DNA of 64,000 nt. Origin: Methylomonas sp. ZR1 (lineage in GTDB: Bacteria; Pseudomonadota; Gammaproteobacteria; Methylococcales; Methylomonadaceae). Numbering within the stretch: the first letter of the stretch is position 1; each line of letters begins with the position of its first letter. Positions 19,659 through 27,055 of this stretch are shown in pieces. The DNA is taken from NCBI RefSeq assembly GCF_013141865.1, contig NZ_RCST01000001.1, positions 930,001-994,000 on the forward strand. Reading direction: 5' to 3'. A model generated the notes under the pieces. It was not told where the DNA came from. It ran no database searches and saw nothing but the letters and a program-made list of their open reading frames with translations. The position numbers were made by a program, and so were the translations under genes.

Positions 19659-20237
19659 TTAGCTGGCTTGGCCGGCGGCAGTCGCTTCCGGTACTTCGAT
19701 CAAACGGCCGGTTTTGACGTCGTAAACATAACCATAGACTGGAATGTCGCTAGGTACCAGGGGGTGGGACTTGATGCGCTTAACATCTTCCAACACGCTT
19801 TCGGCTTGGTTTTTAATGGTCAGCCAGTTGATGTATTTGCCATCTGTCGAGCCGGGGCCTTCGCCGCTGTCATGCCAGCCGGTGGCATCGACGCTGGCGG
19901 TTTTCAGGCTGCTGGCCAACAAATCGCTCATGATGTCGTTGGTAAAGGTTTCCATACCGCAGTCGGTGTGATGAATCACAAACCATTCCTTGGTCCCGAG
20001 TAATTTGTAAGAAATAACCAAAGAGCGGATGGCGTCGTCGCTGGCGCGGCCGCCGGCGTTGCGGATCACGTGGGCGTCGCCTTCGGATAAACCGGCGTAC
20101 TTGGCCGGGTCCAGCCGGGCGTCCATGCAGGTCAGTATGGCAAACTGACGAGCAGGGGGCATAGCCAAATCGCCTTTAGTGAAACTGGATACATAATCGC
20201 GGTTGGCTAACAGTACTTCGTTGTGAATTTTGCTCAT
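19659..20237 (-). CDS. Beta-class carbonic anhydrase
   Basis: A 192-residue enzyme interconverting CO2 and bicarbonate. The zinc ligands are C37 in [11 protein letters not shown]90 and C93 in VIHHTDCG, with the D39/R41 dyad of the CxDxR motif. The pattern CMDARLDP and the short length fit the Rv1284-like branch of beta carbonic anhydrases. The start at 20237 is preferred to the ATG 42 bp upstream because a GAGG ribosome binding site precedes it and homology begins there. The gene is divergent from a LysR regulator, with 155 bp between the starts, so control by that regulator is likely. It is cytoplasmic; there is no signal peptide. In a C1-using bacterium it could supply bicarbonate for carboxylation, an inference. 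Confidence 0.92.
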
Positions 20238-20359
20238 AAAAACCTCGGTGCATGAAAAAACGTCTGGCCTGAATGTCAAACCAGACGAGGTAACGACTAT
20301 CTCCGGGCGGCATTGTAGCCAAGCGGCATTCTGGTTTAAAGACGCTATTTGGTTTATAA

Positions 20360-20382
20360 AATATAAACTTTAAGTTTATATT
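20360..20382. promoter_or_regulatory. Perfect 23-bp palindrome, candidate operator of the LysR regulator
   Basis: AATATAAACTT and AAGTTTATATT are exact inverted arms around a single T. The site lies 11 bp upstream of the LysR ATG at 20393 and 123 bp upstream of the carbonic anhydrase start, and contains T-N11-A spacing as in LysR boxes. It overlaps the region expected for the regulator's own ribosome binding site or promoter, so autorepression is likely. Confidence 0.6.
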
Positions 20383-20392
20383 GAGTGCCGCG

Positions 20393-21277
20393 ATGGATAA
20401 ATTTAACAACATGCGTGTTTTTTGCCGAATAGTCGAGCTAGGCACTTTCTCTGCTGTTGCAAAAGAATCGAAGCTGTCCACGATGATGATCAGCAAATAC
20501 ATTGCCCAATTGGAAGCATCTCTGGGGGTGGTGCTATTGCATCGCACTACCCGTAGTCTAAGTCTGACCAGTGCCGGCGAAGCCTACTATAACCGCAGCA
20601 AGCAATTGCTGGAAGATTTGGCTGATTTGGAAGCGTCTACCGCACAATCAGGCGAGCGGGTGAAAGGCACCATTAAAATCAGCGCGCCTATCGATTTCGG
20701 CGGTATGTACATGGTGCCGGCTATCGAACGTTATCTAAAGCAATATCCGGAAGTGAAGATTTTAATGTCGTTGGATAACAAACCGCCGAATTTGCGAGTC
20801 GGCAGTTTCGATATTTCCCTGTTGGTTACCGATACCCTGGACCCCGGCGTGGTGGCGCGCAAAATTGCCGAGACTGAACTGTGTACCTACGCCGCGCCGA
20901 CTTATCTAGCCGAAAAAGGTTATCCGCAAACCATAGACGAATTGGCCCAGCATCAATGCCTGCACTATGTCGATACCCCGCATGGCGAATTTTGGTTGTT
21001 TGAAGTGGACGGCGAATTGAAGAAAATCAAATCCGACTGGGTGCTGGCGTCCAATAACGGTCGCGCGCTATGTCAGGCGGCGGCCTTGGGTATGGGCATC
21101 GTGCAGGCGCCCAGACTATCGGTAGCGCCGTATTTACAAAGCGGTGAATTGGTGGAGATCCTCAGGCAATATCGCCGACCGGCGCTAGCCATTTACGCCA
21201 CTTATCTACAACGCCGCTTTTATCCGGCCAAATTGACGACGTTTATTGATTTTTTGCTGGCGTATTTCGAGCGGTAG
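20393..21277 (+). CDS. LysR-family transcriptional regulator
   Basis: A 294-residue regulator of normal family length. The N-terminal winged helix-turn-helix (about 5-62) reads FCRIVELGTFSAVAKESKLSTMMISKYIAQLEASLGVVLLHRTTRSLSLT, and residues about 88-290 form the periplasmic-binding-protein-like effector domain. It belongs to the branch near CrgA/DhcR-type regulators that often act on divergent genes. ATG at 20393 is used because the helix-turn-helix starts at once; a GTG four codons upstream is possible but would lie inside the palindrome's end. The adjacent target is probably the beta carbonic anhydrase, and itself through the 20360-20382 palindrome. The effector is unknown. Confidence 0.92.
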   Translation: MDKFNNMRVFCRIVELGTFSAVAKESKLSTMMISKYIAQLEASLGVVLLHRTTRSLSLTSAGEAYYNRSKQLLEDLADLEASTAQSGERVKGTIKISAPIDFGGMYMVPAIERYLKQYPEVKILMSLDNKPPNLRVGSFDISLLVTDTLDPGVVARKIAETELCTYAAPTYLAEKGYPQTIDELAQHQCLHYVDTPHGEFWLFEVDGELKKIKSDWVLASNNGRALCQAAALGMGIVQAPRLSVAPYLQSGELVEILRQYRRPALAIYATYLQRRFYPAKLTTFIDFLLAYFER

Positions 21278-21368
21278 TCCGCATTTGTCAAAGACAACAA
21301 ACTGTTCAGTGCCGCAGTAAAATTGTCCGCAGTCATCTGATGCATTAACCTGAACAGAGCATTGAGCC

Positions 21369-21486
21369 TTGAAAAATCCCGTTCGTCCTGAGTTTTGTCG
21401 AAGGGCGAGCGGGATTTTTCAATCACCCGGCGGGTGAGTATGTTGTAGGCCGTCCATGCTTCGACTTTGCTCAGCACGAACGGCCA
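21369..21486. repeat. REP-like palindromic element with inverted 21-bp cores
   Basis: The region holds a 17-bp stem hairpin (21369-21422, one wobble pair), a small CACCCGGCGGGTG hairpin and a third hairpin closed by GGCCGT and ACGGCC (about 21449-21486). Inside the first and third lie related 21-bp cores in opposite orientation (21382-21402 and 21460-21480; ends TTCG...CGAA). This TTCGTNCTGAG...GTCGAA type of core is a dispersed repeat in many proteobacterial genomes. It is non-coding. Confidence 0.65.
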
Positions 21487-21583
21487 CCACACCCCCCAAC
21501 TGCTCTTTTTAGGCTACATAATAGCGTCATGCCCCGAGAGGCTTAACCAACGTGGCGGATGACGCTCCGCTCAAAGCATTTAA

Positions 21584-21905
21584 GCTCGCGCACGCGGTCT
21601 TTTGCTATCGTCGCAAACTTTTTTACCTTGCACACAAGCTGCCAACCCTGGCGATTAAACCTAAAAGCCTTGCGTGCAACCCGTTTCAGCTCGTGCACGA
21701 GGTATTTTGCTATCGTCGCAATCATTTTTACCTTGCGCGCAAGCCTGCCGAGCCTGGCCATTAAACCTAAAAGCCTTGCGGGCAAGGCAAATTGATTTGC
21801 CGGTCCGGCAGAATGCCTTGCACGCAACGGGATTAATCTCGCGCACAAGGTGATTTACTATCGTCGCAAAGCTTTCTGTGTTACCCGCCAGCGCACTAAG
21901 CCAGG
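21584..21905. repeat. Three imperfect tandem repeats of about 105 bp
   Basis: Units begin with a CTCGNGCAC motif at 21585, 21690 and 21838, and each contains the core CTATCGTCGCAA (21605, 21710, 21858). The first spacing is 105 bp (35 codons), the second 148 bp because of an insertion of about 43 bp. On the minus strand the units translate as similar peptides with ATIA-K-LV-ELK and RKAFRFN motifs, in two different frames separated by the insertion. This is either a decayed gene for a repeat protein or a structured non-coding array; each unit can fold a stem of TTGC...GCAA type. Confidence 0.65.
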
Positions 21906-22189
21906 CGGCAACGTGTTTTAGTTTGAGTCCGAGCGAACGGGGCTTTCGCGAATAGCTCAATGCGATTAGCGCGAGGCGTCAAGGCCCGAATGAGAGGAAA
22001 ATCCCCAACCCCCCAAAGAAAATCATGCCGGGCACTAAGCAATCGCCCTGCACTTGAATGCAATCGAGCAATGAATTGTTGGCAGGCTGGTTATCGGCCA
22101 ATTGCTGCCGCCGTAGGGTGGTGTGAATGACTGCTGTAAACCCCATAATGGACACGGAGAATGACTTACCAGTAAGCGCTCTATCTGGA

Positions 22190-25100
22190 CTAAAGCGCAA
22201 AGCGTACCTCTGGAAGAGCATCCATACGTGATTTGTTAATCATAGTTTCCAGATCGCAGTCTCCTAACGACTGTTCGCAGATTATTTTTGCCAGTTTTAC
22301 GGATTCCTCTCTGATACTTGACGCATTGATAGCCTCTCGGCTGTTGGGGTCAATATTGGAGTAATCAGATATATCAAAAGCATTTATTAGCGCCTCTCTT
22401 AGCGTTTCTATTTGCTCAGTGGATAGCTGTTGCTTTTTGAATAATTCACCGGCCACCCAAAGTAATTGCTGCAATCCGACAGCGCGACCCGAGTCGATAA
22501 TGACAACTAGCCTTGAAACCAAATTTTTAATTTGTGGTAAATCTTTCGATTCAGATAATTCACTCCATCTATGTAACGCAACTGCAGCATAAGCTACATC
22601 ACGGCTATCTCGACCTTGTAATGCCTTACGTATGAGTTTCTCAACGCAAAGTGCTATTTCATCGTTTATAGATACGAAATAAACAAGTGCAGGAAGGGCG
22701 GCGATAGCCCCATCAACTTCGGCGTAAAACGCCTGTAGTTTGTTAAATTGTTCAACGGATTTTGCCTCGCTAGATAAAGCTGGCAAAATCGCATAAGAAA
22801 GTGCGTTACAAATAGACTCGGTTAATCGTCCGCGTTGACCAGCTTCAAAATCAAAATGACCATCACCACCTTTCCATGGTCGCCATATCATCAAACGCTC
22901 AAAAAGTATGCACGCTTGACCCGCTGAGGGAAGCAATTTCGTTCGCTCATTGATGGCCGCATTCGCCATGCTCGCATAAACCGTAATGGCTCGCTGAATT
23001 TCTTTCGAAGGAAAACTCCGTAATTCTTTCTCGGTATCTATCAGAATATCGTCGCTTGTTTCATATAAATGACGTTGCACCAAAGCCTTCACTTGCTGTT
23101 CGTCGGGCGCAGGCAAGAGTAAAAAGGCGTGGGGATATAAATCCTTTATATTGGGTAAGTGTTCATAATTGGGCATTTCCCCCCAAATTGCGGTTGCCAA
23201 GCTTTCAAGTTCTGATGATTTAAGAAAATCTTTTTCTATCAAGGGTAAAATTCTCGACAAGGCTGCAGTGCTGCTTTTTGAGCCATTTGGAGTCACCCCC
23301 GTTATTAACTCACCGATCCTTCTTTCGATACCAGGGTATGTTTGGCGTTCATTCGGAAAATTGATAATCGGATTGGGCCAATGATGAACATCATTGCTTG
23401 CCAACTCACTGCTTAAGGGAAACGCCAATGCTTCTAACAATAGATATCCCTGTTTTGAGTTTGGAACGCTTTTTAGTGAATAGGTTAAAAGGTGATCAAT
23501 AACATCAGATAACCAAAAATGTTGAAAATCTTTCTGTTGCCCTAATGAGACAGCCAGTTTAAATATGTCTGCGGCCTCTTCATCTGAAACGCGAACGGCT
23601 AGACGTGCAAAAACCTCCATTAGGACGCGAAGGATGGATATAGCATGACCTTGTTGCTCTTCTGTACCTTTACTTCGCAGGTTACTCCAATAATTAATCG
23701 CTAAACGGAGATGACAAACCAATTTCGCTACAACTTTTTCTGAAGCACATGCTAAACCGATACGTGTGAAAATGCCTTTTATTGATGATGAACTTTCGCT
23801 GATGGCAGCACGTATCGCCAAAGAGTAATCCCAAAGCTCAATTCCGATGCCACCAGACAGGATTAACTTTTCAGCTGCGCCTGCTAACAAGTTGATATTT
23901 ATGCCAGTACCACCAGTATGTAAAGGAATGCCCACACATCCGCTCACCCCCTGCAAAAGCAAGAACTCTGAGATGTCGGAGTTAACTGAACGGTTATTCG
24001 AATTATTTCGATAATGGCCTTGGTCAAATAACGGCTCAACAGGGTTCTGATTTTTAAGGTAGTCGTCTTGTCGTTTCCTAACTTTCTCTTGAAGATCTTC
24101 GATCCAAACCCAAGGATCACACTGCCAATCTTTGAAAGTGACAGGTAATGGTTCTAACGGCTTATCGGTTTGAAATTGAGATACCGCTTTTAATAACCAA
24201 TGGCACCATGTCAAGCGAGATAAAATTGGAATTGAATTTTGGTTATACCGATAACGCTCTCGAAGCTCGCGGTAGGCCTCCCTAATTAGGTGGGTAGCAT
24301 CTTCAAATCGGCCCAACTCCATTAGTAATGCAGCGCGCCTGAGTTTCCAAACAGGATCTTCACCAGTGATATTTACAATTACAGACTCGATGCCTGCAAA
24401 GTCAAGCTTGTCAAGACTAACAAGAGCTTGGTGATAGGCTAGCTCTGCATTGCAGTCTGGTAAGTACGACGCATAATTTTTCAATATGCCAATCAGTACT
24501 TGAATGCGCTCTGCAATGAATTGGTTTCCTGCTTCATCACTTGCCTCCAGCCATCGGCTGTTTTTAAGCAAGGTTAATGCAAGTTCCATTTGTTGGTGTT
24601 TGCTTAAAGAGCAGGATTGACTTGGATTAGCAAACTGAAAAAATTCATCAGTCAGCCAAGGGTCTATATATTCAAACGTAACACTATGCCGCCATGCTAT
24701 TTCATAAAGCAGATTGGCTCGATCAACCGAGTCAAGTGCAGCAACGTTATCAGGAGTGAGAAATATTGCATGAAGCTGGGAGCGTATAAGCCAGCGTAGT
24801 GACGGCGGGCACATTAACCAGCCGGGATAAGACTCTCGGTCATTTTGCAAGTGCTTAAGATGCCGTTTTATTACTCCTGCAGCATATTCTGGTTCTTTAC
24901 GAATCCGAGAATGATCTTCTTGCGCAACGTCCATAACATGTAAATCTTTTGGCCGCCACTGATGTGGCCCCGCCTTCGATTTTCCCTCGTCCCTCATTGC
25001 CTCTAAAAACAATTCGTTTGCTGTCTGATGCATAAGTTCGCGGTCGTCGATATGTTTTACCGCGTCCCACAAATCAACCGGAGCAATGTTAATAGATTCA

Positions 25101-25858
25101 AGATACTTCCGTCGTGCTGCTGACAGATTCAGTGCGCCAACCAAATAAATTTTGCGTGCATGATCGGCTAAATGATCCCGTACCCAACCTGCCCATTGTA
25201 AAAAATTTGGGTCATCCCCCGAAAAGCCCAATAAACAAAGTTCATTTTCAATAAATACTTGCCGCGCAAAATTGACAAAAGGAGCAAATTTAACAGGATA
25301 AGATCGATAGTCCTCTTGAGCTGCTATGAATATATCTGTTGCACCTATTGTGCCGTGTAGTTTAACGATACGTGGAGATTGAGCCCATGCAAGATCAGAG
25401 GGTTTTGTAACGGGACTATAGTATGGATTATGTATATTCTTCGCTGCTCGCTCCAACAATGTGTCCCAGTTAGTGGTCATAATTTCAGACCAAGGTAATG
25501 TAAGTAACGACGAATATAGTGCTCCAGGGCGCCAAGCCTCATCGTCAATTTCAAAACGAATTTGGTCGTTGAGAGATGCTTGACCAAAGTATGCGCGATA
25601 TTCCTCCGCCACACGTAACGGATCAGAAAAACTCAAGTCTTCAGTTGGATTAAGTGATTTCACTAATCTTTTGCTGAAATCATTCCAAAGGGGCATTTTT
25701 TTCCCACCCCCGCCATGATGAGCAGCGCTACGACTAAAACCTGCTCCTATCATAATCGCGGCTCCGTGCCTATTGGCATCAAGTTTATGCAGAGCAGATG
25801 CTAGCTTTTTGATGGCGGGATAATCGGAAAGATCGCTAATTTTTGATATGGATTTCAT
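22190..25858 (-). CDS. SIR2-domain protein, likely defence-associated sirtuin
   Basis: A 1222-residue single-gene unit. Residues about 25-260 form a SIR2-like NAD-binding domain: GAGFS at 38-42, TTNWD at 128-132 (N130), KLHG at 166-169 (catalytic-type H168) and GFSGDDPNF at 211-219. The remaining 950 residues are helical and repeat-like, without recognised enzymatic motifs. Large proteins with an N-terminal SIR2_2 domain and a long helical C-terminus, such as DSR1 and DSR2, protect bacteria from phages by destroying NAD once the C-terminus senses a phage protein. The layout and the Asn/His pair fit that class closely. The gene is visibly richer in A+T than its neighbours and is bordered by repeats, both signs of transfer. 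There is no partner gene (no HerA, Argonaute or TIR), so it would act alone. ATG 25858 is the only good start. Confidence 0.82.
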   Translation of the reverse strand: MKSISKISDLSDYPAIKKLASALHKLDANRHGAAIMIGAGFSRSAAHHGGGGKKMPLWNDFSKRLVKSLNPTEDLSFSDPLRVAEEYRAYFGQASLNDQIRFEIDDEAWRPGALYSSLLTLPWSEIMTTNWDTLLERAAKNIHNPYYSPVTKPSDLAWAQSPRIVKLHGTIGATDIFIAAQEDYRSYPVKFAPFVNFARQVFIENELCLLGFSGDDPNFLQWAGWVRDHLADHARKIYLVGALNLSAARRKYLESINIAPVDLWDAVKHIDDRELMHQTANELFLEAMRDEGKSKAGPHQWRPKDLHVMDVAQEDHSRIRKEPEYAAGVIKRHLKHLQNDRESYPGWLMCPPSLRWLIRSQLHAIFLTPDNVAALDSVDRANLLYEIAWRHSVTFEYIDPWLTDEFFQFANPSQSCSLSKHQQMELALTLLKNSRWLEASDEAGNQFIAERIQVLIGILKNYASYLPDCNAELAYHQALVSLDKLDFAGIESVIVNITGEDPVWKLRRAALLMELGRFEDATHLIREAYRELRERYRYNQNSIPILSRLTWCHWLLKAVSQFQTDKPLEPLPVTFKDWQCDPWVWIEDLQEKVRKRQDDYLKNQNPVEPLFDQGHYRNNSNNRSVNSDISEFLLLQGVSGCVGIPLHTGGTGININLLAGAAEKLILSGGIGIELWDYSLAIRAAISESSSSIKGIFTRIGLACASEKVVAKLVCHLRLAINYWSNLRSKGTEEQQGHAISILRVLMEVFARLAVRVSDEEAADIFKLAVSLGQQKDFQHFWLSDVIDHLLTYSLKSVPNSKQGYLLLEALAFPLSSELASNDVHHWPNPIINFPNERQTYPGIERRIGELITGVTPNGSKSSTAALSRILPLIEKDFLKSSELESLATAIWGEMPNYEHLPNIKDLYPHAFLLLPAPDEQQVKALVQRHLYETSDDILIDTEKELRSFPSKEIQRAITVYASMANAAINERTKLLPSAGQACILFERLMIWRPWKGGDGHFDFEAGQRGRLTESICNALSYAILPALSSEAKSVEQFNKLQAFYAEVDGAIAALPALVYFVSINDEIALCVEKLIRKALQGRDSRDVAYAAVALHRWSELSESKDLPQIKNLVSRLVVIIDSGRAVGLQQLLWVAGELFKKQQLSTEQIETLREALINAFDISDYSNIDPNSREAINASSIREESVKLAKIICEQSLGDCDLETMINKSRMDALPEVRFAL

Positions 25859-26146
25859 TTGTAGAATTCACAGATGGGCAAAGATTTAATGGGATATAGG
25901 CTATGTAAATTACCATATAGCTGCCATAGCTATTAGGAACAACGAAAGGCTGCTACATGCGACTAACCATACAATCAAATTGCCGTCTTAAAGTCAGCTG
26001 TTTTCAATTTGGATACAACTTTTTCAGAGTGTAATTTGCTAGAGCGCGGAAAACAGGAGGCCCTAGCATCAATTCCACTCGCATATTCATTATTTGCATC
26101 ACTCTATAGTTGGGTAGGCAAGAAGAATAAACGAAAAGCCTCGTGT

Positions 26147-27055
26147 CTATTTTGATTCACCGTTCACCGACCAACTAGCCAGTAAGTTCTGATGTTCGCT
26201 CAAGCTAGGTAAACCCGGCCTGGCGCCCGTTTTGGTGCAGCAAAACGCACCGGCTACGCTGGCGTAACGCAATAATTCTATCCAGCTAAAGCCTTTGGAG
26301 AGGCCGGCGGCAAAGGCGCCGTGAAAGGCGTCGCCGGCGCCGGTGGTGTCTATGGCGACAATAGGCGGCGCGCTGAGGCTGCCCTGTTCCTGGCCGCGTT
26401 GCCAGATCAAGCCGCGTTCGCCCAGGGTAATGACTACCACCGGGGCAATTTGCGCCAGTTTGGCTAAGGCCAGGTTTTCGTCACCGGCATATTGCAGCGC
26501 AAACTTTTCCGAACAGACCAGATAGTCGACTTTATCCAACAGAGCCAAAGTGCCGTCGTGCAGCGAGCCGGCGTCTAACACGGTCGGTACTGGGCGGGTT
26601 AACTGCTTTAATACGCGCAGAGAAATATGCGGCTCGTGACCATCGAACAACAGCACTTTGGCTGCTAAGTCGTCAAAGTCGATAGCGGTTGCGGGCAGGG
26701 CGCTGGTTTGTCCTTTGTAATTGATCAAGGCGCGCTGGCCGTTCGGTTTGACCAGCACGGTCGATAATGGCGTTGGCGATGCGCCGCGCACTACCCAGTG
26801 GCTATCGACGCCATGATCTTGCAACTCCCGTAAATGACTGTCGCCGTATACATCATCACCCAAATAGCCGCAAAAGCCGGCCTTACCGCCTAGTTTAGCC
26901 ACCGTGACCGCGGCGTTGGCGGCAGGTCCGCCACCGCAGCCCAGCAAGTCGTCGGCGACGATCTTTTCATCGGCGCCGGGATGATGCGGCACCGAAAACA
27001 CCAAGTCGTAACTGGCATGGCCGATGCAAAGTACGTCGAGCGGTGTGGCGGTCAT
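26147..27055 (-). CDS. PfkB-family sugar or nucleoside kinase
   Basis: A 302-residue kinase of the ribokinase/PfkB fold. It shows the N-terminal glycine-rich GGGPAANAAVTVAKLGG motif (about residues 40-56) and the C-terminal DTTGAGDAFHGAFAAG signature with the catalytic-base Asp of GAGD (about 237-252). It phosphorylates a small sugar-like substrate with ATP in the cytoplasm. The branch is near the YihV/ribokinase-like group, so the exact substrate cannot be told. Its start overlaps the stop of the RimK-like gene by 4 bp (ATGA), so the two are co-translated. That coupling suggests the kinase modifies a substrate or product of the ligase, although this is only inference from position. Confidence 0.85.
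   Translation of the reverse strand: MTATPLDVLCIGHASYDLVFSVPHHPGADEKIVADDLLGCGGGPAANAAVTVAKLGGKAGFCGYLGDDVYGDSHLRELQDHGVDSHWVVRGASPTPLSTVLVKPNGQRALINYKGQTSALPATAIDFDDLAAKVLLFDGHEPHISLRVLKQLTRPVPTVLDAGSLHDGTLALLDKVDYLVCSEKFALQYAGDENLALAKLAQIAPVVVITLGERGLIWQRGQEQGSLSAPPIVAIDTTGAGDAFHGAFAAGLSKGFSWIELLRYASVAGAFCCTKTGARPGLPSLSEHQNLLASWSVNGESK

Follow-up and report, generated by a model that had tools for sequence, protein, structure and literature searches.

The 64,000-nucleotide stretch of Methylomonas sp. ZR1 analysed here (the window) carries a gene, designated P0001, which we read as a single-gene Dsr2-like abortive-infection NADase whose SIR2 domain is held inactive and becomes activated by a phage product (probability roughly 0.8). 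The computed basis for this is an intact gene, a predicted SIR2 fold, the presence of catalytic residues and a near full-length relation to Dsr2 profiles, together with a less conserved sensor, patchy presence, a genomic slot shared with other cargo and the company of defence genes at some homologues. In the resting state the N-terminal SIR2 nicotinamide adenine dinucleotide (NAD+) hydrolase would be kept off, with the long helical C-terminal part acting as sensor. During infection a phage-made product would bind this sensor and thereby switch the SIR2 domain on, and the resulting destruction of NAD+ would stop the cell before the phage completes. The inferred elements are hydrolysis of NAD+, a resting state without activity, oligomerisation and a phage-protein trigger, although the tail tube protein which activates Bacillus subtilis DSR2 cannot be assumed to be that trigger. 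An earlier sequence-only reading had likewise proposed an abortive-infection defence sirtuin, and this appears to be the best-supported explanation: a model lacking the NAD pocket and a gene conserved in place in all relatives had been named as grounds for rejecting it, and neither was seen.

The features of the gene are as follows.

22190..25858, minus strand: Dsr2-like SIR2 gene P0001, 1222 residues (open reading frame (ORF) list; Pfam, PADLOC and NCBIfam profiles)
24989..25858, minus strand: predicted SIR2 NADase domain, residues 1-290
25730..25747, minus strand: GAGFSR nucleotide-binding motif, residues 38-43 (sequence and alignment)
25463..25471, minus strand: N130, W131 and D132, equivalent to DSR2 N133, Y134 and D135 (alignment to DSR2)
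25355..25357, minus strand: H168, equivalent to DSR2 H171 (alignment to DSR2; invariance)
22193..24988, minus strand: putative helical sensor region, residues 291-1222 (structure model)
22193..23185, minus strand: C-terminal HEAT-like solenoid, residues 892-1222
22202..22222, minus strand: D-x-L-P-E-V-R C-terminal tail, residues 1213-1219 (invariant in 46/46)

Catalytic residues, predicted fold and family of P0001

The SIR2 gene is an intact ORF of 1222 codons (22190-25858) which starts with an ATG at 25858 and has no internal stops; the sequence-only reading had described this ORF, omitting that it lies on the minus strand. The A+T richness it had remarked upon is also borne out: G+C content is 43.0-43.6% across the pair of 2-kb bins that contain the gene, whereas the window's remaining 30 bins range over 46.6-56.5%. 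The motifs it had listed were located at residues 38-42 (GAGFS), 128-132 (TTNWD, with N130) and 166-169 (KLHG, with H168). In alignment A1, G38, G40, F41, S42 and R43 are invariant across all 46 aligned relatives, as are N130, W131, D132 and H168, while N130, D132 and H168 are also retained in 31/31 sequences of a broader SIR2 set. N130 and H168 align with N133 and H171 of DSR2, in agreement with the Asn and His of DSR-type proteins expected previously. At E <= 0.001 Pfam assigns a single domain to the protein, SIR2_2, which scores 70.4 bits (cut-off 24.5).

Two structure models were examined. The first spans residues 23-1222 and has a predicted local distance difference test (pLDDT) score below 50 at 147 of its 1200 residues, nearly all within model residues 1-184; its SIR2 part is poor, and statements on the NAD pocket rest on the second model. 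There, a SIR2 fold with an NAD pocket is predicted at high confidence, and the top structural matches of this domain are defence NADases. Residues 291-1222 (932 residues) are near-entirely helical in the first model with few short strands, close to the ~950 residues of helical repeats anticipated from sequence. The C-terminal D-x-L-P-E-V-R tail is invariant in 46/46 sequences of A1, with EVR, EIR or DVR retained in distant relatives. This motif resembles a HEAT-repeat signature, and the tail may cap the solenoid; given that resemblance, the idea that it forms an inhibitory plug is not pressed.

Both available Dsr2 profiles match P0001 collinearly over nearly their whole length. Residues 31-1196 align with positions 23-1187 of 1222 in the PADLOC profile PDLC02184 (480.8 bits, E 2.7e-144), and residues 32-1196 with positions 19-1183 of 1215 in the NCBIfam profile NF041819 (491.3 bits). 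The sequence-only reading had seen no obvious likeness between the helical part and those of DSR1 and DSR2; for the profile-defined Dsr2, these near end-to-end matches contradict it. Seven further homologues (Ideonella, Methylorubrum, Priestia, the phage record and three other genomes) scored 442-682 bits against NF041819, all under its equivalog cut-off of 1400, and no relative above that cut-off was found among 369 class-level or 398 phylum-level genomes. Since the seven match the profile and yet miss the cut-off, the Dsr2-like family, judged from these scores, is broad and the curated equivalog a narrow part of it.

Conservation, distribution and genomic company of homologues

Of 458 homologues at E <= 0.001, the 120 listed share 49-92% identity over 81-100% of the length of P0001, a likeness that chance cannot account for. 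Mean conservation in A1 (46 sequences) is 0.82 for residues 1-290 versus 0.63 for residues 291-1222. Pairwise comparisons show the same division, with identities in the SIR2 domain and sensor of 70% versus 44% for a copy from another family of the same order (L002), 71% versus 40% for the Ideonella copy and 51% versus 26% for a same-family copy (L029). A conserved enzyme joined to a faster-changing sensor fits, but does not prove, recognition of changing phage proteins.

The gene is patchily distributed, and it is not conserved in place in relatives. Full-length homologues occur in two of 61 genomes, own included, and in none of the 35 other genomes of the genus, where the partial SIR2 matches of G014 and G015 belong to other proteins. 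A same-species genome gave no match to P0001, the same query having recovered P0001 itself in a separate search. At family level 2/201 genomes, own included, hold a full-length copy and five more give partial matches. Searches with the Dsr2 profile found a match to most of the profile in one of 369 class-level genomes (its own; seven partial) and in seven of 398 phylum-level genomes, own included (26 partial only); among the phylum-level matches, that of G849 spans 8-920 and that of G651 has one internal stop. Seventeen plasmid records matched, one of them over 80% of the query, and a single phage record encodes a 1181-residue homologue. Six peptide patterns matched none of the viral contigs and, across genome contigs, only one locus, that of Glaciimonas soli. 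In a gut phage record (IMGVR 517045; L075), a Dsr2-like gene lies near a C5-cytosine methylase and a 1276-residue ORF with two serine-recombinase-like stretches (Ccr/XisF-type, below cut-off).

PADLOC was applied to chosen ORFs (1-5 per locus) at eight homologue loci and gave clear defence matches at three: a type III restriction operon surrounding the SIR2 gene (G946), PDC-S37/Hhe-like and MkoC-like matches (G836), and a type I restriction-like match plus a pAgo/AlbA_2-like match (G773). Among the ORFs given for L019, L067, L069, L070 and L071 there were none or only weak matches. In one relative (L066:5799-17790), the SIR2 gene is enclosed by genes for a DrmD-like helicase, a type III methylase, PDC-S02 and type III restriction; because these ORFs overlap slightly, the cluster is perhaps a composite defence operon.

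The lysR-pfkB slot

P0001 occupies a site between two convergent genes, lysR (end at 21277) and pfkB (end at 26147), laid out as follows.

20381..21277, plus strand: lysR-type regulator, left neighbour (Pfam)
21344..22088, no strand: dispersed intergenic repeats, left edge of the site
22089..25994, no strand: variable cassette in which the SIR2 gene is the sole ORF of at least 100 residues (ORF lists; BLAST edges against relatives)
25995..26146, no strand: conserved right edge of the site (80-81% identity in G011, G031, G024 and G025)
26147..27055, minus strand: pfkB-type sugar kinase, right neighbour (Pfam)

We surveyed this slot in the 37 genomes of the genus search, reading the tables by eye. 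Among the matches listed, lysR and pfkB are adjacent in 11/37 genomes, their match ends lying 15-617 bases apart (G003, G004, G005, G009, G010, G014, G015, G016, G030, G033 and G034), and are separated by 2.8-4.9 kb in six, own included; in the other 20 they are apart, on separate contigs, or one is unmatched, and in G025 and G028 of this group the inserts look split over contigs. The cargo differs between genomes. Where the SIR2 gene sits here, the same-species genome G061 has a 498-residue protein kinase (L005:3112-4608), while G013 holds DUF2971/PDC-S31 and DUF4238, G024 GmrSD_N/NsnA-like and AlbA_2, G031 two ORFs without assignment, and G011 a Y1 transposase, an unassigned ORF and a Mutator transposase. 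G025 and G028 have a common unassigned protein of 237 residues (96% identity), G025 also carrying a 177-residue ORF (unscanned). Apart from this 237-residue pair, no two of the 14 cargo proteins compared match at E <= 1e-3. PADLOC matches at E <= 1e-20 were found in four of seven cargo sets, a count which leaves aside G031 and G025, whose matches are weak (E 0.001-0.01), and in which those for the kinase and GmrSD are at domain level.

The junctions on either side, carbonic anhydrase-lysR and pfkB-RimK-like, each align without a break, as a single BLAST match, in the other five contiguous loci, apart from end trimming ("carbonic anhydrase" is a putative label for ORF 19659-20279); as far as these alignments reach, variation is therefore restricted to the lysR-pfkB slot. 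Cargo would be exchanged through recombination between the conserved slot edges. The repeats downstream of the gene had been taken as pointing to transfer; they are real (21344-22088), but are no mark of the SIR2 gene's own transfer because they belong to the site and adjoin other cargo in relatives. They include a palindromic element (21369-21422), within a stretch that has numerous copies in the genus, and a ~68-nucleotide unit spaced at 105-148 nucleotides. Elsewhere, 409-residue ORFs lie in or beside some repeat copies; Pfam identifies that of L007 as a Mutator transposase, with L081, L082 and L084 grouped with it by equal length only.

The genome (5.18 Mb) has three methane/ammonia monooxygenase A family matches, the third (G000:C1:2904249-2904950) with an internal TAA, which suggests that the host is a methane (or ammonia) oxidiser. 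Literature searches on single-gene defence hotspots and on SIR2 defence in methanotrophs gave nothing of use.

Alternative readings and known systems

Several observations weigh against an anti-phage Dsr2-like NADase. At 491.3 bits P0001 fails the NF041819 cut-off, and clear defence matches stand beside the homologue at only three of the eight loci scanned (1-5 ORFs each). The Glaciimonas soli copy (L019:4337-13702) directly follows dnaA-dnaN-gyrB, and that of Ideonella is surrounded by genes for metabolism and metal resistance. Furthermore, no promoter-like site occurs just upstream of the SIR2 gene start, and the slot contains four such sites versus 9.2 in shuffles.

A protein-deacylating sirtuin with a housekeeping or regulatory role would share the SIR2 fold, and source records name some relatives "SIR2 family NAD-dependent protein deacylase". 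Deacylase sirtuins carry a zinc-binding four-cysteine motif, however, and this is absent from P0001, as residues 1-290 hold a single cysteine (C208); with patchy presence in a variable slot and defence NADases as the best structural matches, this function is extremely improbable. Some SIR2 effectors are known to work with a separate sensor, and one relative sits inside a restriction operon, so P0001 could be an NADase that depends on a partner from another locus, in the manner of Thoeris or SIR2-HerA. We consider this very unlikely, given the long helical region within the same chain, the lack of any other ORF above 101 residues between lysR and pfkB (the repeats carry small ORFs of 80-101 residues) and the lack of a common partner among annotated neighbours in two plasmid records. 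Defence against plasmids or other mobile elements, instead of phages, would agree with homologues on plasmids and in one phage record, as competition between elements predicts; with DSR1 and DSR2 described as anti-phage in published accounts, as far as these go, this too is unlikely. It is rather doubtful that P0001 mirrors B. subtilis DSR2 in detail, as a tetramer with a C-terminal cavity binding free phage tail tube protein: the two share domain order and catalytic residues, but only their SIR2 domains align in sequence, as judged through a close homologue of DSR2.

Among other SIR2 systems, the PADLOC ThsA profile (Thoeris) matches only residues 29-240 of P0001, and the nine neighbour proteins scanned with Pfam include neither a TIR protein, the Thoeris partner, nor a helicase such as the HerA of SIR2-HerA/Nezha. 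No STAND ATPase follows the SIR2 domain, as it does in AVAST type 5, with Pfam giving SIR2_2 only at E <= 0.001. An N-terminal SIR2 domain is common to P0001 and the DSR proteins of PMC10973363, Dsr1 among them; the Dsr1 profile NF041818 does not match P0001 at E <= 1, although HMMER filters may discard weak matches.

The closest comparison is with two families that seem to share the name DSR2. The structure of B. subtilis DSR2 has been solved; the tail tube protein activates it and DSAD1 blocks it. A close homologue of this protein aligns with P0001 over the SIR2 domain only (hhalign, BLASTP), and gave no match to NF041819 or PDLC02184 at E <= 1. Likewise, among credible matches of P0001 and profile A1 to solved-structure (PDB) sequences the SIR2 part alone aligned, with B. 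subtilis DSR2 confined to profile positions 55-229. Because the Dsr2 profiles miss a close relative of the solved protein, the name seems, on sequence grounds, to cover two families: mechanistic papers concern the one from B. subtilis and profile databases the other, to which P0001 and the scanned homologues belong. No description of a trigger for the profile-defined family was found in the parts of the literature searched. The suggestion of a new trigger made by the sequence-only reading survives, not for the reason it gave but because the tail-tube-triggered B. subtilis DSR2 is unrelated in sequence outside the SIR2 domain. A bolder reading, given a little under even odds, is a widespread Dsr2-like NADase clade whose sensor is unrelated in sequence to that of B. 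subtilis DSR2 and responds to a different phage signal from the tail tube protein, with the lysR-pfkB slot of one, probably methane-oxidising, clade swapping single defence cassettes by recombination at its conserved edges. The interest of P0001 lies in its unexplored sensor and in its cassette slot, a short, well-bounded place to seek more single-gene defences in these bacteria.

P0001 resembles the profile-defined Dsr2 in near full-length collinearity, in joining SIR2 to a helical sensor and in length, but as a distant relative and not an equivalog (491 versus 1400 bits). With B. subtilis DSR2 it shares the SIR2 fold, the catalytic Asn and His, and a single protein with N-terminal SIR2 and C-terminal helical sensor, differing in length (1222 versus 1005 residues) and in a sensor with no detected sequence relation, as tested through the close homologue. 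The trigger of one Dsr2-like member would show whether NADases with helical sensors share triggers or evolve new ones.
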